Part shown: piece after piece, positions 1,513 to 55,500 of the stretch | Layout: each line of letters starts with the position of its first letter | Numbering within the stretch: the stretch's first letter is position 1 | DNA from: Thiotrichaceae bacterium | GTDB lineage: Bacteria; Pseudomonadota; Gammaproteobacteria; Thiotrichales; Thiotrichaceae | NCBI GenBank assembly: GCA_027083815.1 | Contig: JALWMR010000086.1 | Location: 1-56,730 of the forward strand | DNA length: 56,730 nucleotides | Direction: 5' to 3' | Notes under the pieces: generated by a model | Told to the model about the DNA's origin: nothing | The model's database searches: none | What the model saw: only the letters and a program-made list of their open reading frames with translations | Translations under genes and position numbers: made by a program

Positions 1513-1544
1513 AGTAGATTATTATTGGCTTTTATTGATTTATT

Positions 1545-1580
1545 AAAGCACACCCCCCCACTTTTTGGCACTTTTATAAG
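1545..1580 (-). repeat. Short copy 2 of the GGGGGGTGTAC repeat family
   Basis: Read on the minus strand this is AAAAGTGCC, then AAAAAGTG with a run of seven G, then TGTGCTTT. The usual TGTAC is TGTGC here. It faces the long plus-strand copy at 1653-1754, so the two form an inverted pair about 210 bp wide. Confidence 0.8.
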
Positions 1581-1652
1581 AGGAATGGTTATCTCTAAGA
1601 CTGTAAATTTGATCTTGCCTTGTCTTGTATAGGCATGATACGAAATATATTA

Positions 1653-1754
1653 GATAAAGGGCAGCTGAGCGTAGGCGAGATAATGTCGGAGCATAGCGAC
1701 GACGACCCGCAGGGCGGTTGAAAACCGCCAAAAAGTAGGGGGGTGTACTTTTTT
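1653..1754 (+). repeat. Long copy 3 of the GGGGGGTGTAC repeat family
   Basis: This is a full-length copy: the module with GGCGAGATAATGTCGGAGC, then a GGCGGTT-GA-AACCGCC hairpin, then the core AAAAAGTA with six G and TGTACTTTTTT. It is followed by the tail AGGTTGTTTTTTTGCC seen after several other copies. It sits about 115 bp upstream of mnmG. Read on the reverse strand, the module is open and encodes NRPAGRRRYAPTLSRLRSA, nearly the peptide that the thiB copy inserts. Confidence 0.85.
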
Positions 1755-5900: not shown

Positions 5901-6060
5901 GAGAAAAGCCATGCGTCGCCAAACAACGGCGACATAATGATTCGCTGCGCTCACCCTTCGGGTCAGCTAAAGCTGTTGTCTCGCTACCGCTCGGCTGAAT
6001 TGTCCGTTTCACACAACGAAACGGCAAGTTCACTAAAAAAGTAGGGGGGTGTACTTTTAA
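5901..6060 (+). repeat. Long copy 4 of the GGGGGGTGTAC repeat family with two-hairpin module
   Basis: The copy starts GAGAAAAGCC and ends in the core AAAAAAGTA with six G and TGTACTTTTAA. It contains two hairpins: GTCGCC-AAACAAC-GGCGAC (about 5933-5953) and CCGTTTC-ACACAAC-GAAACGG (about 6004-6024). The same two-hairpin block occurs in the copy at 38417-38590. Between the hairpins is a version of the long module in reverse orientation (GCTGTTGTCTCGCTACCGCT). Confidence 0.85.
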
Positions 6061-7416: not shown

Positions 7417-9972
7417 ATGCAGAAAATAATTTTTTCACTATTCGTTTTATTGCTAATTCAGTTTTCAGCCTACGCCGAAGAAAAGCCACAGGCTGTGATT
7501 GTTTTTGATGCTTCGGGCAGTATGTGGGCAAAGGTTAACGGAAAAACCAAAATCAGTATTGCAAAGCAGGCACTTGGCAAGGTTGTTAGCGACTGGGATA
7601 CCAATGTAAATATAGGTTTGATTGCCTATGGTCACAGGAAAAAGGGGGATTGTAGCGATATTCAGACCCTGGTGCCTATAGGTCAAGTTAATAAACAAGG
7701 GATGATTGCAGCTGTAAAAAAAATAACCCCCAAAGGAAAAACCCCCATTAGTCGCTCTCTTCAAAAAGCGGCAGAAGCTCTTGGTTTTACTGAAGAAAAA
7801 GCCACCGTAATTTTAATCAGTGATGGTCAGGAAACCTGTAAAGCTGACCCCTGTGCAACTGCCAAAGAACTTGAGAATAAAGGCATAGATTTTGTGGCGC
7901 ATGTGATTGGCTTTAATGTTGATAAAAAAACGGATGCACAGCTTAAGTGTATTGCTGATGTTACCGGTGGTGAGTATTTTTCAGCCAAAAATGCAACTGC
8001 TTTAAACACGGCAATGGAGAAAATTGCTGAAAAAGTACAAAAGGAAGAACCCAGGCCTGTACCTGAGCCTGCACCTGAACCAAAGGAGCTTAAATACAAT
8101 TTAAGCGTTGCTACCTTTAATGAGGCCGGCAAACCAGTAAGCTCCAGCAGTATTACCCTTTATAAAAAAGATGGCACTGATGAGTTCGGCAAGCCTAAAC
8201 TGACAGAAGTTGCAAAGGGTTTATATACCAATAGTAAAAGCTTTAAAGTTCCCCCTGGGGAGTATGTGGTTAAGGCAAAAGTCAATAATGGCGTTGGTCA
8301 GGCCCAGGAAGATGTGACCATAGAGCCATCCAAAGGCAAGGAGATCAAACTGATCTATAGTATTGGCACATTAAAAGTAGGCACCTTTAATGAGGCCGGC
8401 AAGCCAGTAAGCTCCAGCAGTATTGTTCTTTATAGGAAAGATGGTACTGATGAGTTTGGCAAGCCTAAACTGACAGAGCTTGCAAAGGGTTTATATACCC
8501 AAAGCAAAAACTTTAAAGTTCCTCCTGGGGAGTATGTTGTTAAGGCAAAGGTCAATAAAGGTGTTGGTCAGGCCCAGGAAGATGTGACCATAGAGCCATC
8601 CAAAGGCAAGGAGATCAAACTGATCTATAGTATTGGCACATTAAAAGTAGGTACCTTTAATGAGGCCGGCAAGCCAGTAAGCTCCAGCAGTATTGTTCTT
8701 TATAGGAAAGATGGTACTGATGAGTTTGGCAAGCCTAAACTGACAGAAGTTGCAAAGGGTTTATATACCAATAGCAAAAGCTTTAAAGTCCCTCCGGGTG
8801 AATATGTGCTTAAAGCAAAAGTCAATAATGGCGTTGGTGAGGCACAGGCAGATGTAACTGTTGAATCTGCCAAAGGCAAAGCAATCAAACTAATCTACAG
8901 TATTGGCTTGTTAAAAGTAGGCACCTTTGATGAGGCAGGAAGGCCAATGAGTTCCAGCAGTATTACCCTTTATAAAAAAGATGGCACCGATGAGTTTGGC
9001 AAGCCTAAATTAACAGAAGTTGCTATTGGCAGATACACCGATAAGAAATTGTTTAAAGTTCCCCCTGGTGATTATGTCGTTAAGGCAAAAGTCAATAATG
9101 GTGTTGGTGAAGCACAGGCAGATGTGACCATAGAGCCATCCAAAGGCAAAGAGATAAAACTGATCTACAGTATCGGCTTGTTGAAAGTAGGTACCTTTGA
9201 TGAAACTGGAAAACCGATGAGTGCAAGCAGTATTGCACTTTATAAAAAGGATGGAACCGATGAGTTCGGTAAGCCCAACTTAATAGAAGTCGCTATAGGC
9301 AGGTACACGAATAAGAAACTATTTAGAGTCCCTCCCGGTGAGTATATTGTTAAGGCATTGAATAAAAAAGCTAGGGCAAAGACAAAGGTAACTATTGAAG
9401 CGAGTAAGGGGAAGGAGTTAAAGCTTGTACTTAAAGAGCAAGCACTGAAGGAGAGTGTACCCAGTTTAGACAATAAGGCTCATGAATCAATCCCGGAAAA
9501 AGCTAAGAAACCAGTGATTGAGGTTGACAAGACAGAATCCGATAAGAAACCAGAGCAGACAGCGCCAGAGCCGCGAAAAGTAGAGAAAAATAAAGAGGCA
9601 GAAACAAGCCAGAATAAGGATAAAGCAAAGTCTCAAGCGGCTATTTTCAAGGAGTCCGTTGTCGCCTCGCTACCACTAATCAAACAAGCTAAAAGCTGTT
9701 ATCAGGAAGCAAACAGTCTGGATCAAGCTAAGGCGTGCGAGAAGTTTGAGTCGCAAGCTACTGAAAAATCGCAAATAATTTTACAAAAGGCGTTTGGTAA
9801 AGCGGTAAAAATGGAACCACAGAAAACGCATACACAATGGGATGCTGGTATTAAGAAAACCGTGGTAAAGAACGCGGACAACGATATTCGCCAGATGGAA
9901 TTAAGCATTAAATGTATAGATAGGGGCGCAACCCTGGCTAATTTAAAGGCGTGTATGGCTAAGGGCTTGTAA
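7417..9972 (+). CDS. Secreted von Willebrand factor A protein with five 90-residue repeats
   Basis: The start at 7417 follows AAGGAAAGAG and gives a signal peptide (residues 1-21, ending SAYAEE); an in-frame TTG 33 bp upstream is less likely. The vWA domain spans about 25-215 with the MIDAS motif DASGS at 31-35, then TPISRS and ISDGQETC. After a Pro/Glu linker come five tandem units of exactly 270 bp (residues about 231-674), each with a TFNEAGKPxSSSS start, a DGTDEFGKP segment and KVPPGEYVVKAKV. The units look like carboxypeptidase-regulatory or Ig-like beta-sandwiches (inferred). The C-terminal 170 residues are Lys/Glu-rich, followed by a helical segment with several Cys. It is a likely periplasmic or surface adhesion or scaffold protein of unknown role. 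Confidence 0.9.
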   Translation: MQKIIFSLFVLLLIQFSAYAEEKPQAVIVFDASGSMWAKVNGKTKISIAKQALGKVVSDWDTNVNIGLIAYGHRKKGDCSDIQTLVPIGQVNKQGMIAAVKKITPKGKTPISRSLQKAAEALGFTEEKATVILISDGQETCKADPCATAKELENKGIDFVAHVIGFNVDKKTDAQLKCIADVTGGEYFSAKNATALNTAMEKIAEKVQKEEPRPVPEPAPEPKELKYNLSVATFNEAGKPVSSSSITLYKKDGTDEFGKPKLTEVAKGLYTNSKSFKVPPGEYVVKAKVNNGVGQAQEDVTIEPSKGKEIKLIYSIGTLKVGTFNEAGKPVSSSSIVLYRKDGTDEFGKPKLTELAKGLYTQSKNFKVPPGEYVVKAKVNKGVGQAQEDVTIEPSKGKEIKLIYSIGTLKVGTFNEAGKPVSSSSIVLYRKDGTDEFGKPKLTEVAKGLYTNSKSFKVPPGEYVLKAKVNNGVGEAQADVTVESAKGKAIKLIYSIGLLKVGTFDEAGRPMSSSSITLYKKDGTDEFGKPKLTEVAIGRYTDKKLFKVPPGDYVVKAKVNNGVGEAQADVTIEPSKGKEIKLIYSIGLLKVGTFDETGKPMSASSIALYKKDGTDEFGKPNLIEVAIGRYTNKKLFRVPPGEYIVKALNKKARAKTKVTIEASKGKELKLVLKEQALKESVPSLDNKAHESIPEKAKKPVIEVDKTESDKKPEQTAPEPRKVEKNKEAETSQNKDKAKSQAAIFKESVVASLPLIKQAKSCYQEANSLDQAKACEKFESQATEKSQIILQKAFGKAVKMEPQKTHTQWDAGIKKTVVKNADNDIRQMELSIKCIDRGATLANLKACMAKGL
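8111..9440 (+). repeat. Five in-frame 270-bp tandem repeats inside the vWA gene
   Basis: Units begin at 8111, 8381, 8651, 8921 and 9191, exactly 270 bp apart (90 codons). The fifth is shortened near its end. Units 2 and 3 are almost identical at nucleotide level, which indicates recent duplication; units 4 and 5 have diverged more. Copy number could vary among strains by recombination or slippage. Confidence 0.95.
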
Positions 9973-11344: not shown

Positions 11345-11427
11345 GTGATACTCTACTTTGAAATTACTATGTGCTAAAGGCGGCGAGAGTACAGCAGTTT
11401 AGAGGTGGTGTAACCTTATTCTTAATA

Positions 11428-11463
11428 GAAAAGGGCAAAAAAGGCGGGGGGTGTACTTTTTAG
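11428..11463 (+). repeat. Short copy 5 of the GGGGGGTGTAC repeat family
   Basis: GAAAAGGGCAAAAAAGGC, a run of six G, then TGTACTTTTTAG, followed by the family tail GAGTTGTTTTTGCCACGG. The short form has no long module. It lies upstream of rhlE, which reads away on the other strand. Confidence 0.85.
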
Positions 11464-17185: not shown

Positions 17186-17211
17186 TGTAGTCTCCATTTG
17201 TTTGCAATGAG

Positions 17212-17247
17212 CACAAAAGTGCCAAAAGGTGGGGGGTGTACTTTTAA
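17212..17247 (+). repeat. Short copy 7 of the GGGGGGTGTAC repeat family
   Basis: CACAAAAGTGCCAAAAGGT, a run of six G, then TGTACTTTTAAT. It lies about 30 bp upstream of the DUF302 start on the opposite strand, so it may overlap that gene's promoter. Confidence 0.85.
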
Positions 17248-21069: not shown

Positions 21070-21111
21070 AATTAAGTATTAAATCACAATTTAGTTATCT
21101 AAATAGTATAT

Positions 21112-21150
21112 TAAAAGTACACCCCCCCCACTTTTTGGCGTTTTTCTCGG
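21112..21150 (-). repeat. Short copy 8 of the GGGGGGTGTAC repeat family, abutting uvrC
   Basis: On the minus strand: GCCGAGAAAAACGCCAAAAA, then GT with eight G, then TGTACTTTTAA. Its edge lies within 3 bp of the likely uvrC ATG (21153), so the normal upstream region and Shine-Dalgarno of uvrC have been replaced by repeat sequence. Confidence 0.88.
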
Positions 21151-34831: not shown

Positions 34832-34858
34832 ATTTTTAAAAACGTAAGGAGATAAAAG

Positions 34859-36511
34859 ATGCTAAAAATGAAAAAGAAGTTACAGATTTTAATACTTTCG
34901 CTCAGTGCTTTGGCAGGCGGTGGTTTTAGTTTAACGGCACAGGCTGATGTAATGGGGTTTGTGGAAAGCCATAAAATTCCTGGTCAGGTACTAAGTCATG
35001 TTGTAAGTCATAATGGTAAATTTGTTTATGCAGCCTCTACTAGCCCTGGCAAGATCTATGTTTTCTCCAGAAATCAGGAATATGGGAAATTGACGGAATT
35101 ACAAGCAATTAACCCGCCTTCCTCAGTATCCACTTTTTCTTCTCAGGGAATGGTAATCAGTCCTGATGATAAACAGCTTTATATCCTCAACCTTAATGGA
35201 GACGTCTTACGTTTTGATGTGAATGATATGGGAGAACTTACTTATGTGGGTTCAATAGAAACTGCTGGTAGAGGCAGTGGAATTGTTATTTCCAGCAATG
35301 GCAGTTATCTCTATGTTGCAGGATATTATGGAGAGCTTACGGTACTTAGGCGTGCTGCCAATGGTAATCTTTCTAAGAAGCAGTTAGTTACAAAAGATTT
35401 AAACGATAATGAAATTTCATATGCTAAAGAAATGACGCTAAGCCCTGATGGAAAACAACTTTTTGTTTCAAGCCCATCTTTTGATGACCGTTTATATGTT
35501 TTTAATATTGAAACTGGTGGTACTTTGACAAGTACACAGGTTTTTATGAACAAGAATAATAGCTACAACCCTAATGATGAAGATATCAAGATTGATGGAG
35601 CAGGGGGATATGGTACAGCAGTAACTAAGGATGGAAAATATTTCTATGCTGTTGGTCGTACTAGGTCTGTCAAAGATTCAATTTCAATTTTTAAGCGTGA
35701 TGGAAATGGTCGTCTTAGTTTTTATAAAAATGTAGTTTCACCCAAAAAATCAGCAACAAACTCGAATACAATTATTTTTTCTCCTGGGGCTGATTTAATA
35801 ATAAGCCCTAATCAAAAATATGTTTATGTTTTTGATGATATCACGGATATCCTCAGCGTGTGGCGACGAGATATTAAAACTGGAGATCTATCTTTACTCG
35901 ATAGAATTAATGGTATTTCAAGCACTCATTATGATTACCGTATGAATATTTCCCCTGATGAAAAGCATTTATACTTAAATGCGACAAGTGGGATTGTTGT
36001 TTATGATCTACGTTCCGATCTCAATATCGTAAAATCTGGCCCCAGCACCAATGTAGCCCCTAATGGCACCATCTCCTATACTCTGGCAGTGACCAATAAT
36101 GGCCCCAGCGATGCCTATAATGTGGTGGCCACAGATACCCTGCCTGCTGGCACAAGCTATATCAGTGGCACGGTTAATTCAGCCTCAGGTTCATGTTCAG
36201 CCAGTGATCAAAAAGTCACCTGTAGCATGGGTAAATTTGCTGTAGATGACGGCTATAACGCCATTATTCAGGTAAAAGCCCCCACAGCAGAAGGCACAAT
36301 CACCAATACAGCCAGCGTGACTGCCGACCAACTGGACAGCAAAACAACGGATAACAGCGATTCGGTCACCACCACCATTAAAAAAGGCGGCTCAACCCTG
36401 CCACCCGTAACAGGTGGTGGAACAGGCGGCAGCGGCGGAGGTAGCATGCCACTGAGCTTGTTTGTGCTGTTATTGCCCGCTTTACTGCGTCGCAGACTAA
36501 AGTTTAATTAA
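34859..36511 (+). CDS. Beta-propeller/DUF11 surface protein with GlyGly-CTERM tail (copy A)
   Basis: A 550-residue protein. It has a signal peptide (about 4-30, ending TAQAD), a lactonase/YncE-like seven-bladed propeller (about 35-380, blades with SPDGKQLFVSS-type strands), a DUF11 domain (about 385-515: VKSGPSTNVAPNGTISYTLA, TDTLPAGTSYIS), and a C-terminal GGSGGGS spacer, hydrophobic helix and Arg cluster (about 525-550). That tail is the GlyGly-CTERM sorting signal processed by rhombosortase in known systems. AGGAG lies 7 nt before the ATG. It is followed by a terminator and a paralogue. Confidence 0.9.
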   Translation: MLKMKKKLQILILSLSALAGGGFSLTAQADVMGFVESHKIPGQVLSHVVSHNGKFVYAASTSPGKIYVFSRNQEYGKLTELQAINPPSSVSTFSSQGMVISPDDKQLYILNLNGDVLRFDVNDMGELTYVGSIETAGRGSGIVISSNGSYLYVAGYYGELTVLRRAANGNLSKKQLVTKDLNDNEISYAKEMTLSPDGKQLFVSSPSFDDRLYVFNIETGGTLTSTQVFMNKNNSYNPNDEDIKIDGAGGYGTAVTKDGKYFYAVGRTRSVKDSISIFKRDGNGRLSFYKNVVSPKKSATNSNTIIFSPGADLIISPNQKYVYVFDDITDILSVWRRDIKTGDLSLLDRINGISSTHYDYRMNISPDEKHLYLNATSGIVVYDLRSDLNIVKSGPSTNVAPNGTISYTLAVTNNGPSDAYNVVATDTLPAGTSYISGTVNSASGSCSASDQKVTCSMGKFAVDDGYNAIIQVKAPTAEGTITNTASVTADQLDSKTTDNSDSVTTTIKKGGSTLPPVTGGGTGGSGGGSMPLSLFVLLLPALLRRRLKFN

Positions 36512-36524
36512 ATAAAAACAGGAT

Positions 36525-36554
36525 AAAACCACCGGTGAAATATCCGGTGGTTTT
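36525..36554 (+). terminator. Stem-loop between the two propeller genes
   Basis: An 11-bp perfect stem AAAACCACCGG/CCGGTGGTTTT with an 8-nt loop. The final TTTT may serve as the U-tract. It would reduce read-through into copy B, which has its own strong Shine-Dalgarno. Confidence 0.8.
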
Positions 36555-36584
36555 AGCAAATTAAAAAAAGATAAGGAGATAAAA

Positions 36585-38291
36585 ATGAAAAAGAAGTTAC
36601 AAATTTTAATACTCTCGCTCAGTGCTTTGGCAAGCGGTGGTTTTAGTTTAACGGCACAGGCTGATGTAATGGGGTTTGTGGAAGATACCTTACTTGAAGG
36701 AAATGTTTATCAACATGCCATTAGCCCTGATGGTCAATTTGTTTTTTCTACAACTTTAAGCCCAGCTCAACTCTATGTACACCGACGTGATCCTGAAACG
36801 GGTAAATTAACTCTTGTTCAAAAAATAGAAAAAGCAGATCTGGTTCCCGGTAAAACAACATTTTTCAATCCGCAAGGTATGGTAGTTAGTCCTGATAGCA
36901 AACAGTTGTATATTAGTACTGTATTTGGGGAAGTTGGTGATAGTGACTTGCCTTTTGATGAGTCTGTAGTGCGCTTTGATATAAGCTCAAATGGCTTATT
37001 GTCCTATCATAGCAGAGTGATAACGGGTAAAGCAGATACTGGTCTGGTTATAAGCCCAAAAGGAAAATTCTTATACGTGGGATCAGCTAGTTCTTCAGGT
37101 GCACCAATTGCTGTATTAAAACGGGCTAATAATGGCAATATTAGTTTGGTTGAGACAGTTAAGACAGATTCAAATGGAAATGAGTTAGATGACACCCAAA
37201 GTATTAGCATTAGCCCTGATGGCAAGACATTATATGCATCAAGTTTAAATGTTGATGGTCATTTATATATTTATAATCTAGATAAAACAACAGGACACCT
37301 AACTGGCGTTGATACCCTTATCCATAACAATATAGTTAAACCTATCTGGCGTCATTCAGAAGATACGCCTGTCCCAGGCTCAGGTGGTGCAGGCGTTGCT
37401 ATTACAAAAGATGGAAAGTTTTTGTATTCTGTTGGTGGTTATGGAGAACCAAGTTCAGAACAGCGTCGTTCAATAACTATTTTTAAACGTCAATCTAATG
37501 GCAAGCTTGAACATTTTAAAGATATAAAATCACCAGATAGTGGTAATGGACTTGGTATTCTATTTGCCACTAAAGCTCATTTGATTCTTAGCCCTAATGA
37601 AAAATATATTTATACCTTCGACCCAATTATTAACACAATTGGCGTATGGAAAAGAAACACTACAACAGGTGATTTAACCTTTTTGGATAAAATTGATGAA
37701 ATTTCAAATAACACCTCGGGTAATAAGCTAGTCAGTTCCAAAGATGGACGGCATGTATACCTTAATGCATCTAATAAGATAAAGGTCTATGACCTACGCT
37801 CCGACTTGGAGATTGTAAAATCTGGCCCCAGCACCAATGTAGCCCCTAATGGCACCATTTCCTATACTTTGGCAGTGACCAATAATGGCCCCAGTGATGC
37901 GCAAAATGTGGTGGTCACAGATACCCTGCCTGCTGGCACAAGCTATATCAGTGGCACGGTTAATTCAGCCTCAGGTTCATGTTCAGCCAGTGGTCAAAAA
38001 GTCACCTGTAGCATGGGTAAATTTGCTGTAAATGACGGCTATAACGCCATTATTCAGGTAAAAGCCCCCACAGCAGAAGGCACAATCACCAATACAGCCA
38101 GCGTGACTGCCGACCAACTGGATACAAAAACAACGGATAATAGTGACTCGGTTACCACCACCATTAAAAAAGGCGGCTCAACCCTGCCACCCGTAACAGG
38201 TGGTGGAACAGGCGGCAGTGGCGGAGGTAGCATGCCACTGAGCTTGTTTGTGCTGTTATTGCCCGCTTTACTACGTCGCAGGTTTGGCTAG
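36585..38291 (+). CDS. Beta-propeller/DUF11 surface protein with GlyGly-CTERM tail (copy B)
   Basis: A 568-residue paralogue of the preceding gene with the same architecture: signal peptide, propeller (about 30-400), DUF11 (about 405-535) and GlyGly-CTERM tail with RRR. The first ~98 bp and last ~460 bp are nearly identical to copy A, with about 3 and 18 differences counted by eye. The propeller has diverged and is about 20 residues longer. Such conserved ends with a variable middle suggest gene conversion at the ends or diversification of the exposed domain. Confidence 0.9.
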   Translation: MKKKLQILILSLSALASGGFSLTAQADVMGFVEDTLLEGNVYQHAISPDGQFVFSTTLSPAQLYVHRRDPETGKLTLVQKIEKADLVPGKTTFFNPQGMVVSPDSKQLYISTVFGEVGDSDLPFDESVVRFDISSNGLLSYHSRVITGKADTGLVISPKGKFLYVGSASSSGAPIAVLKRANNGNISLVETVKTDSNGNELDDTQSISISPDGKTLYASSLNVDGHLYIYNLDKTTGHLTGVDTLIHNNIVKPIWRHSEDTPVPGSGGAGVAITKDGKFLYSVGGYGEPSSEQRRSITIFKRQSNGKLEHFKDIKSPDSGNGLGILFATKAHLILSPNEKYIYTFDPIINTIGVWKRNTTTGDLTFLDKIDEISNNTSGNKLVSSKDGRHVYLNASNKIKVYDLRSDLEIVKSGPSTNVAPNGTISYTLAVTNNGPSDAQNVVVTDTLPAGTSYISGTVNSASGSCSASGQKVTCSMGKFAVNDGYNAIIQVKAPTAEGTITNTASVTADQLDTKTTDNSDSVTTTIKKGGSTLPPVTGGGTGGSGGGSMPLSLFVLLLPALLRRRFG

Positions 38292-38344: not shown

Positions 38345-38693
38345 TTGGTTTCAGCAAAAGGGTAACGTTGAGTAAAATGCCTAAAAAGACGGGGTACTTA
38401 TTATGGTTGTTTTTGTCACGGAGCCGAGCGATAAGCGAGACAATGTCAGAGTGTAACGACGACAACCCGAAGGGTGAGGCGTAGCTGAACAAAAGCCATG
38501 CGTCGCCAAACAACGGCGACATAATTGAATTGTCCGTTTCAAACAACGAAACAGCAAGTTCACTAAAAAAGTGGGGGGGGTGTACTTATCAGATTATCTC
38601 AGGGGGGCTTAGGACGGGCGTTAGCGTCATTTGTTTGATTGTAGTTTGCGCAAGATCAAAATATAGTATATTCTAATATGCTAATATAGTTTT
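38345..38693. other. Gene-free interval with repeat copy and degenerate core
   Basis: No gene is supported. It holds a degenerate core (AAAAAGACGGGGTACTTA at about 38383-38400) followed by the family tail TGGTTGTTTTTGTCACGG, then the full long copy 38417-38590. The remainder (38591-38693) is AT-rich with several ATATAGTATATT-like steps that may hold the glsB-like promoter. Confidence 0.7.
38417..38590 (+). repeat. Long copy 11 of the GGGGGGTGTAC repeat family with two-hairpin module
   Basis: It starts with GCGAGACAATGTCAGAGTGT in the long module, continues through the GTCGCC/GGCGAC and GTTTC/GAAAC hairpins shared with the copy at 5901-6060, and ends in a core with eight G and TGTACTTA. A degenerate core and tail lie immediately upstream, so two insertions may be stacked. 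Confidence 0.87.
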
Positions 38694-53902: not shown

Positions 53903-53987
53903 CAAAAAGTACACCCCCTAGCTTTTTATGGCTTTTCTAAAGCCATCCTTCGGGTAGTCGTCGCTTCACCCGGCTTGGGGTTTTCTT
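53903..53987 (-). repeat. Long copy 15 of the GGGGGGTGTAC repeat family, between thiB and thiP
   Basis: Read on the minus strand: GAAAACCCCAAGCCGGGTGA, AGCGACGACTACCCGAAGG, hairpin ATGGCTTT-AGA-AAAGCCAT, then AAAAAGCTA with five G and TGTACTTTTTG. It starts about 10 bp after the thiB stop. This stem sequence is unlike that of any other copy yet pairs perfectly. Confidence 0.85.
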
Positions 53988-53997
53988 AGAGGAGCCG

Positions 53998-55164
53998 TTA
54001 ATTAGCCATTGCCTTAAGCCATTCCCGAGTCCAGGTTTTTCGATTTTTAGCGACATCTTCTTCGGTAAATAATAAGGCAGGGGATGGATCAATCAATGTT
54101 TGATAGGCTTCAGGTAATTTTTCTTTGGGTAGATAAGCCGGATACATCCAGTTACTCTCAGGAATGATGCTCTGAAAGGCTTCACTTTGCATAAACCTTA
54201 AAAAATCTTCAGCAAGTTCTGGTTGTTTGGCATTGGCCAGCATAGCTGCGACTTCAACTTGTTGATAATGCCCCTCTTCAAATTTGGCGGCGGTATAGTT
54301 ATCTTTTTTTTCGGCAATTATATGATAAGCAGGGGAGGTGGTATAACTGAGCACCATAGGCGCCTCACCCTTCAGAAATAAGCCATAAGCTTCACTCCAG
54401 CCTTTGCTGACCGTTACGATACGAGGGAGCAGATTCTTCCAGGCATCGGTTGCTTTATCGCCATAGATTTTTTTCACCCATAGCATTAAGCCCAAACCGG
54501 GTGTGCTGGTGCGTGGATCCTGTATAAGAATCTTGGGGCCACTTTTGTTTTCGACCAATTCTTGCATGCTTTTGGGTGGGTTTTTCAGCCTGTTTTTATC
54601 ATAGACAAAGGCGAAGTAGCCAAAGTCGTAAGGCAAAAAGATTTCATCTGACCACTTATTAGGCAAAGCACTCGGTTTTTCTTCAATGCCATGAGGCGCG
54701 AATAAGCCAGTTGCTTTAGCCTCTGCTGTTAAATTGGTATCAAGCCCCAAAACTACATCGGCCTTGCTGTTTTCCCCTTCCAGCTTTAAGCGGCTTAACA
54801 AGGAGACACCGTCTTCAAGAGCCACATAATTAAGCGTGCAATGACACTCTTTTTCAAAGGCTTCTTTTACTTTTGGCCCGGGCCCCCATTTGCTGGTGAA
54901 TGAGTCATAGGTATAAACGGAGAGTACAGGTTTTTCATCTGCGTTAGCAGTAGCTGCCAAGCCAAACATAACAAAGAGTAGCATGGAGAAAAGGCCAGCC
55001 GAGCGATAGCGAGACAATGTCGGAGCAAAGCGACGACTACCCGTAGGGCGGTTGAGCCGAGCCGCAGGCGAGACAGCAGCTTTAGCTGACCCGCAGGGTG
55101 AGGCGTAGCCGAGCAAAACCGTAAAAAGGTGGGGGGGTGTACTTTTAAAGAATGAAAAAGGCAT
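53998..55164 (-). CDS. thiB: Thiamine-binding periplasmic protein ThiB with a repeat inserted in its signal peptide
   Basis: A 388-residue precursor starting at 55164, where GGAG lies 6 nt upstream. Residues 1-7 are MPFSFFK. Residues 8-56 are encoded by a repeat copy. Residues 57-75 (GLFSMLLFVMFGLAATANA) are a hydrophobic core with a cleavage site. The mature protein begins near DEKPVLSVYTYDSFTSKWGP and matches the ThiB/type-2 extracellular binding-protein fold, with YDFGYFAFVYD, QDPRTSTPGLGLM and VLSYTTSPAYH. It binds thiamine for ThiPQ. A TPP riboswitch lies upstream. Without the insert the N-terminus is an ordinary signal peptide; with it, export may be impaired or rely on an internal start. 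Confidence 0.92.
   Translation of the reverse strand: MPFSFFKSTPPHLFTVLLGYASPCGSAKAAVSPAARLNRPTGSRRFAPTLSRYRSAGLFSMLLFVMFGLAATANADEKPVLSVYTYDSFTSKWGPGPKVKEAFEKECHCTLNYVALEDGVSLLSRLKLEGENSKADVVLGLDTNLTAEAKATGLFAPHGIEEKPSALPNKWSDEIFLPYDFGYFAFVYDKNRLKNPPKSMQELVENKSGPKILIQDPRTSTPGLGLMLWVKKIYGDKATDAWKNLLPRIVTVSKGWSEAYGLFLKGEAPMVLSYTTSPAYHIIAEKKDNYTAAKFEEGHYQQVEVAAMLANAKQPELAEDFLRFMQSEAFQSIIPESNWMYPAYLPKEKLPEAYQTLIDPSPALLFTEEDVAKNRKTWTREWLKAMAN
54997..55143 (+). repeat. Long copy 16 of the GGGGGGTGTAC repeat family, in frame inside thiB
   Basis: Element orientation is antisense to thiB. The 147 bp are 49 whole codons with no stop. It includes the module (GCGAGACAATGTCGGAGC), a duplicated GCCGAGC segment, and the core AAAAAGGT with a run of seven G and TGTACTTTT. 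The encoded peptide NRPTGSRRFAPTLSRYRSA closely matches the translation of the intergenic copy at 1653-1754 in the same frame. Exact insertion borders are uncertain by a few bases at each end. Confidence 0.9.
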
Positions 55165-55169
55165 GAGTA

Positions 55170-55194
55170 TCTCCATTAATTGATAAAAAGGAGA
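55170..55194 (-). promoter_or_regulatory. Candidate Shine-Dalgarno-sequestering hairpin of thiB
   Basis: On the transcript TCTCC (55190-55194) can pair with GGAGA (55170-55174), the thiB ribosome-binding site. It could form the expression platform of the TPP riboswitch upstream by hiding the ribosome site. The stem is only 5 bp, so this is tentative. Confidence 0.4.
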
Positions 55195-55246
55195 GATGCA
55201 AAGTGACCAAATCAGAAAAAGAATCAAAGCAAGATGATTTAGCCAT

Positions 55247-55339
55247 AACTCACATCCCTACGCCGGTATTAACCGGATCAGGTTCATCGGATTGAGCTTA
55301 GGCTCTCTCAGTTGGATTGATCCAACACTCCGTTGAGTT
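55247..55339 (-). promoter_or_regulatory. TPP riboswitch (THI element)
   Basis: On the transcript, P1 pairs AACTCA with TGAGTT. The conserved CTGAGAG and the 3' region GAACCTGATCCGGTTAATACC, followed by GGCGTAGGGA, are the hallmarks of the THI element. The aptamer ends about 80 nt before the thiB start. Binding of thiamine pyrophosphate should turn the thi operon off; a Shine-Dalgarno-sequestering step is possible. Confidence 0.95.
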
Positions 55340-55390
55340 CGCGTTATTACTATAATGACTTTTTATGCTTTCGCAAGCAGCTGATTATAG

Positions 55391-55500
55391 AGAAAAGGGC
55401 AACCGAGCCGTAGGCGAGATAATGTTGGAGCGTAGCGACGTCTACCTGTAGGGCGGTTGAGCCGAGCAAAACCGTAAAAAAGGTAGGGGGTGTACTTTTG
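55391..55500 (+). repeat. Long copy 17 of the GGGGGGTGTAC repeat family
   Basis: GAGAAAAGGGCAACCGAGCC, then the module (GGCGAGATAATGTTGGAGCG), a CGGTT/AACCG pairing with an eleven-base loop that carries a GCCGAGC insertion, then AAAAAAGGTA with a G run and TGTACTTTTG. It sits between the TPP riboswitch promoter region and the FAD oxidoreductase gene. Confidence 0.86.

Follow-up and report, generated by a model that had tools for sequence, protein, structure and literature searches.

To our knowledge, self-recognising DNA watermarks are established only in the Neisseriaceae and the Pasteurellaceae, and the DNA uptake sequences (DUS) of the former are present in thousands of copies per genome. 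Dispersed repeats of other kinds include the BIME-2 elements, which are gyrase sites, and the Rickettsia palindromic elements, which were reportedly described by Ogata et al. in 2000. For the DUS, dialects with a shared inner core as well as inverted pairs have been described (PMC3630211). The uptake signal sequences (USS) of the Pasteurellaceae originate by mutation and have a strong consensus with two AT-rich segments located 3' of the core (PMC1626085). Moreover, the even spacing of uptake sequences is ascribed to Karlin in a citation contained in PMC1939737. In enterobacteria, the repeat units RU-1 and RU-2 are found inside genes, one example being Y. pestis YPO1552 (PMC2759123).

The repeat analysed here lies in thiB and elsewhere in the genome of a Thiotrichaceae bacterium (assembly GCA_027083815.1). 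The 56,730-nucleotide stretch of contig JALWMR010000086.1 that was analysed is called the window in its whole length. Like the USS and the DUS, the 36-nt core of the repeat is present in hundreds of copies on both strands with a very strong consensus and even spacing, its spelling varies as dialects between related species around a common inner part, and it occurs in permissive coding sites and in inverted pairs. As in the USS, two AT segments follow on the 3' side of the core, separated by about one helical turn. Unlike in the USS and the DUS, the core is longer (36 nt, with a C-run of 5-8 nt) and mostly intergenic, its density is lower, phased AT extends far beyond it, and the host belongs to a lineage for which we found no described uptake sequence.

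With the Rickettsia palindromic elements, to which the original prediction had drawn a parallel, the repeat has in common that its DNA sits in frame and stop-free within genes and is tolerated as peptide, which fits the modules found in thiB. The parallel does not extend to the core, which appears to be no recent insertion but to have been already in the signal peptide of an ancestor, which lies in genes in both orientations, and which came first, the modules following. RU-1 and RU-2 are MITE-like and bear terminal inverted repeats, whereas the core has none and is spelled in dialects at orthologous sites. The core also resembles the REP/BIME elements with RAYT in its short, intergenic and sometimes paired copies, but it is asymmetric and no Y1 transposase was found in this genome.

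The thiB gene and its signal peptide

According to the original prediction, a dispersed repeat had been inserted in frame and without a stop in the thiB signal peptide. The reading frame is indeed open from the ATG at 55164 to 53998 (Table 1), and the repeat lies in frame, without a stop, in the first 75 codons. Translation from an internal start had been considered as an alternative. The upstream ATG is supported because the GGAG in front of it is matched in the sister genes, while none precedes the internal ATG at 54984. Likewise, the match to an intergenic copy, claimed for 1653-1754, was recovered between 55055-54990 and 1656-1721 with 86% identity.

Table 1. Positions of thiB, the parts of its signal peptide and selected cores in the window
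Feature	Positions	Strand	Support
thiB, periplasmic thiamine-binding protein, 75-residue signal peptide	53998..55164	-	TIGR01276, 430 bits; ORF
GGAG Shine-Dalgarno of thiB	55171..55174	-	sequence reading; GGAG also before the start in sister genes
TPP riboswitch 5' of thiB	55237..55342	-	Rfam RF00059, 74.9 bits
36-nt core motif, coding for KSTPPHLFTVLL in the thiB signal peptide	55111..55146	-	33.9 bits (profile made without the thiB copy); orthologous copies in the dialects of G010 and G009
Module B (CTCACCCTGCGGGTCAGCTAAAGCTG...), within the insertion specific to this genome	55055..55110	-	35 nt with 94% match to 5950-5984; relatives without it
Module A (CAACCGCCCTACGGGTAGTCGTCGC...GGCCTTTTCTCC), within the insertion specific to this genome	54985..55054	-	86% identical to 1656-1721; relatives without it
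Native hydrophobic region and cleavage site MLLFVMFGLAATANA, then DEKP	54940..54984	-	hydropathy; alignment with relatives
Core copy downstream of thiB, opposite orientation	53903..53941	+	30.5 bits
Intergenic core with module A, upstream of the TPP riboswitch	55390..55500	-	
Intergenic core; G010 and G009 sites at the orthologous place, same orientation	21111..21150	+	
Intergenic core; orthologous dialect site in G009, same orientation	17210..17247	-	
Intergenic core; orthologous dialect site in G010, same orientation	11424..11462	-	
Facing core pair, the minus-strand core with module A; source of the peptide match in the original prediction	1542..1754	.	

The genome under study (G000) was compared with sister genomes, which are mostly drafts or MAGs. 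As had been anticipated, orthologs free of the insert exist: six thiB genes of the same genus lack the extra codons and their signal peptides have about 21-28 residues. The nearest one, that of G010, has 26 residues compared to 75 here, and the predicted excess of 49 codons is therefore exact. However, these codons are not one inserted element. The insertion comprises only about 126 nt (42 codons), consisting of module B and then module A at 55110-54985 directly after the core, and the other 7 codons of the excess stem from short indels further on, in the native tail. Orthologous counterparts of the initial 36 nt of the repeat are present in G010 (AAAAGACCACCCCCCCTCTTTTTCGCTGTTTTG) and G009 (AAAACCCATCCCCCCCTTTTTTTACATATTTTT), each in its own dialect. 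For G010, the profile match to the thiB core alone is weak (E=0.033) and the ungapped in-frame orthology carried this point. An in-frame insertion relative to insert-free orthologs thus holds for the 126-nt modules and not for the core. The same sites in sister species carry different, species-specific sequence, which is not expected from simple insertion, and a single 147-nt insertion was rejected, since core dialects are found in the thiB genes of G010 and G009. The core in thiB is most readily read as an old part of the signal peptide that was already present in an ancestor.

In thiB, the end of module A is an imperfect repeat of the end of the core. The modules add 42 residues with a net charge of +7 between the n-region encoded by the motif and the native hydrophobic core. 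Repeat DNA has thus been inserted in the signal sequence, as proposed, but the split is not obviously destructive: the hydrophobic core and the ANA cleavage site are intact downstream of the modules. For mature ThiB, pN is 0.155 and pS is 0.80, the only values given because dS is saturated, and the mature protein is under constraint. Given an intact start codon, Shine-Dalgarno sequence and cleavage region and the constraint on mature ThiB, we infer that thiB probably still functions and that its signal peptide of 75 residues works in spite of its unusual length.

The core motif and its dialects

The alignment of all copies yielded the consensus AAAAAGTACACCCCCCnACyTTTTTtGCCcTTTTCTCC, a 36-nt asymmetric unit with one conserved orientation. 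In the 1.18 Mb that were read letter by letter (about 42% of the 2.78-Mb draft genome, about 22 kb of that apparently N), about 280 core copies were found, which corresponds to about 237/Mb, and most of them are intergenic. The exact 14-mer AAAAGTACACCCCC occurs 372 times genome-wide (190 and 182 copies on the two strands), compared to 0 for the reversed control, and the window contains 17 copies of the repeat end where 0.4 are expected. The 12-mer AAGTACACCCCC is present in 244 exact and 36 one-mismatch copies (about 7:1), while chance would give 1:36. The spacing of the cores is more even than random, with a variance/mean of 0.52 over 84 windows, and the neighbouring gene pairs at cores are convergent in 43 and divergent in 20 cases. 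Neither terminal inverted repeats in the core nor a clean empty site with a target duplication were found. A MITE with AAAAGTACACCCCC terminal inverted repeats was rejected because most copies are solitary 36-nt asymmetric units. Moreover, the repeat could not be assigned to a known RNA family, the TPP riboswitch being the sole match in the window, and the three largest core-free gaps, which were checked as possible foreign islands, look like core metabolic operons.

The AT content oscillates in phase with the core at a period of about 10.5 bp, a signal that is strongest at the core and decays to about -290 and +165. A genome-wide periodicity as the cause of the phasing was rejected because no 10.5-bp AT periodicity is left at distances of more than 600 nt from the cores. 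Phased AT beyond the core was also detected in G010, and it was not seen in G009 and G002, which have few sites. Of the 12 close core pairs in G010, 10 face each other, and many facing inverted pairs lie about 68 bp apart.

GC-rich modules (A, B or another) are located at the 3' end of about 18% of the cores, and module A accompanies about 40 of the 263 cores counted in this genome. Module B was also observed without a core at four loci (L093, L104, L105 and L107), within another dispersed repeat (TTATTCGGCAAACAACGCC...) that is longer and near-identical between its copies and from which the inserted modules may have come. Two near-identical composite repeats at 5904-6060 and 38491-38589 of the window carry another module, the CCGTTTCGTT...AACGAAACGG hairpin, beside the core, and a module like this one also adjoins a core in G003 (L071). 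At L099:4236-4267, a core adjoins the probable TTG start of thyA, and because it abuts this start, the G-rich strand of the motif (AAGGTGGGGGG) may be the ribosome-binding site of thyA. The window also contains four tandem copies of a 270-nt unit at 8101-9210, which are 83-92% identical to the first and have a length that is a multiple of three. Two pairs of long direct repeats at 34834-38035 (133 and 300 nt, 88-89% identical) suggest duplicated genes or domains.

In several species of a single Cocleimonas-like genus of the Thiotrichaceae, the motif was shown to occupy orthologous positions, with its own spelling in each species. The dialect is AAAAGTACACCCCCC in G000, ATACCCATCCCCCC in G002 and G009 and AGACCACCCCCC in G010, and in all four genomes the dialect part is followed by a T-tract, about 4 nt and another T-tract. 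The logos of G010, G009 and G002 revealed a common architecture of an AT-rich start, CAC or CAT, a C-run and the two T-tracts about 4 nt apart. These three sister dialects rest on 40, 26 and 15 sites, and those of G003, G004, G007 and G011 on few sites only. Sister species carry the motif in their own dialect at the matching place of thiB, the tolB signal peptide, a midA loop, iorA (two places) and selU. When orthologous flanks were compared, a core was present here in 20 of the 35 cases with a sister site and in 20 of 163 cases otherwise (odds ratio 9.5, p=6e-8), a test that omits four small loci chosen for their core and includes a few other such loci. The orientation of the orthologous flank sites agrees 13:3. 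A family-wide scan revealed a dense motif in G000, G002, G009, G010 and G011 and a moderate density in G004, while the remaining genomes, with those outside the genus among them, are at or near background. Independent insertions would not be expected to leave old sites with a sequence that is homogenised within each genome.

Cores inside genes

A crude caller, which called ORFs mechanically, placed 38 of the 280 cores within ORFs of at least 120 codons, some of them merely gene-end overlaps or alternative starts. Many of the convincing cases are located in signal peptides or N-terminal membrane segments, for instance in thiB, tolB, a PBP1C, a BatD-like protein, a polysaccharide deacetylase and others. 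These examples are not an unbiased sample because several loci were chosen for having a core here. In either orientation, the motif codes for a basic stretch running into hydrophobic residues (KKYTPPLIWRFL; EKSQKKWGGVLL) and therefore suits the n-region of a signal peptide. The further repeat-in-gene cases that the original prediction suggested looking for across the genome are thus present, and one of them, the polysaccharide deacetylase, has undergone the same in-frame event as thiB. Its signal peptide contains only the core in G003, whereas here 63 nt (21 codons) of module A are added to it, which points to the same two-step history.

As to how the core itself enters genes, the evidence from sequence appears mixed. 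In selU, the conserved VLYCFRGG is covered by a full core at the cost of only 2 residues more than in motif-free relatives, and in midA of G002 and G009 the motif occupies a loop of 17 residues compared to 19-21 in G001, G004 and G011. The view that all in-gene cores are insertions was rejected on these grounds. On the side of insertion, alignments to PDB homologs revealed about 12-13 extra residues at the core in G000 midA and CobD, and the G000 TolB is 12 residues longer than that of G004; loop and signal-peptide lengths vary. A degenerate core (25 bits) at L158:15001-15034 coincides with GKYTPLHFVAFHP in a probable radical-SAM protein and is possibly a further motif over native sequence. 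The G010 ortholog of the tRNA 2-selenouridine synthase gene selU (L278) has one in-frame TGA.

Possible roles of the core motif

We favour, with about even credence, an uptake-sequence-like (DUS/USS-like) role for the core because of its strong consensus, the species dialects, the even spacing, the two T-tracts one helical turn apart and the inverted pairs. We do not claim membership in either class. In such a role, a surface receptor on the type IV pilus or competence machinery would prefer DNA of the local dialect, and recombination of the preferentially taken-up DNA would push the motif and the helically phased AT toward the preference of the receptor. The motif would build up wherever the genome tolerates it, be it between genes, in signal peptides or in loops, and would have become the n-region of the thiB signal peptide in an ancestor. 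Later, and in this lineage only, GC-rich modules of about 42 codons would have been inserted in frame at the 3' end of the motif. The Sec pathway probably tolerates such a long basic n-region, so that ThiB would still be exported. PilQ, ComEC and DprA are present in this genome but are not specific: both motif-rich and motif-poor genomes have competence genes, as do many unrelated bacteria. It counts against uptake that the density of about 240/Mb is well below that of the DUS, that the core is longer than the DUS and that some in-gene cores (G000 midA and CobD; tolB compared to G004) look inserted. Moreover, phased AT that extends out to about 290 bp has not been described for the USS and hints at a protein that wraps DNA, and in G009 and G002 no phasing beyond the core was seen.

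It is indeed possible, if somewhat doubtful, that the motif is the binding site not of a receptor but of a co-evolving intracellular protein that wraps DNA or organises the chromosome, such as a nucleoid protein or gyrase at a strong site, with the copies in signal peptides as tolerated side effects. The phased AT around the core and its absence at a distance, the even spacing and the predominance of convergent over divergent neighbouring gene pairs would all agree with such a protein, and periodic arms of 10.75 bp are known from the gyrase motif of E. coli (PMC6379681). However, the ratio of perfect to one-mismatch sites is stricter than usual for intracellular sites, following the argument of PMC1626085. 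For gyrase in particular, spelling shifts between close sister species are unexpected, and its motif is symmetric, about 130 bp long and degenerate, without a 36-nt consensus. We consider it rather unlikely that the motif is specifically the nucleation site of a novel protein that wraps DNA, organises the chromosome and differs in specificity from one sister species to the next. Such a protein would impose helically phased AT over about 450 bp at hundreds of sites with even spacing and would reshape the proteins in whose genes the motif falls, most of all their signal peptides.

If the core were a non-autonomous mobile repeat of REP- or MITE-like type that spread long ago, before speciation, and was homogenised in each genome by gene conversion or continuing transposition, the in-gene copies would be tolerated insertions like those of Rickettsia. 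The gaps of about 12 residues at some in-gene cores, the clearly inserted modules A and B and the Y1 transposases of G002, G009 and G010 speak for this reading, which we nevertheless judge unlikely. A REP/RAYT system was rejected for G000, as no Y1/REP transposase (PF01797) was found in this 99.7% complete genome, and the asymmetric core has neither terminal inverted repeats nor a detected target duplication. Furthermore, each genome has its own dialect at orthologous sites, selU and the midA genes of G002 and G009 accommodate the motif with 2 more residues and no net gain, respectively, and the spacing is more even than random. It is very improbable that thiB is decaying after the modules disabled export, or that repeat copies were wrongly joined in the assembly, although the draft consists of 254 contigs and the repeat has hundreds of copies. 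Against both stand the open frame, the TIGR01276 match, the intact riboswitch, Shine-Dalgarno sequence, hydrophobic core and cleavage site and the low pN relative to pS. The thiB copy is moreover only 79-86% like the nearest copies in the window, and a second gene, the polysaccharide deacetylase, shows an in-frame event of the same kind.

If the uptake-sequence-like role is true, a third, unrelated lineage would have such a watermark, with at least three dialects readable at orthologous sites, and these dialects would allow a direct test of the co-evolution of uptake specificity and genomic sequence. If the motif is a chromosome-organising site instead, it would represent a new kind of species-specific architectural signal. 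Either way, a signal at the level of DNA writes peptide into export signals, and in two cases, thiB and the polysaccharide deacetylase, later repeat insertions have added 42 and 21 codons to such a signal and the gene has survived.
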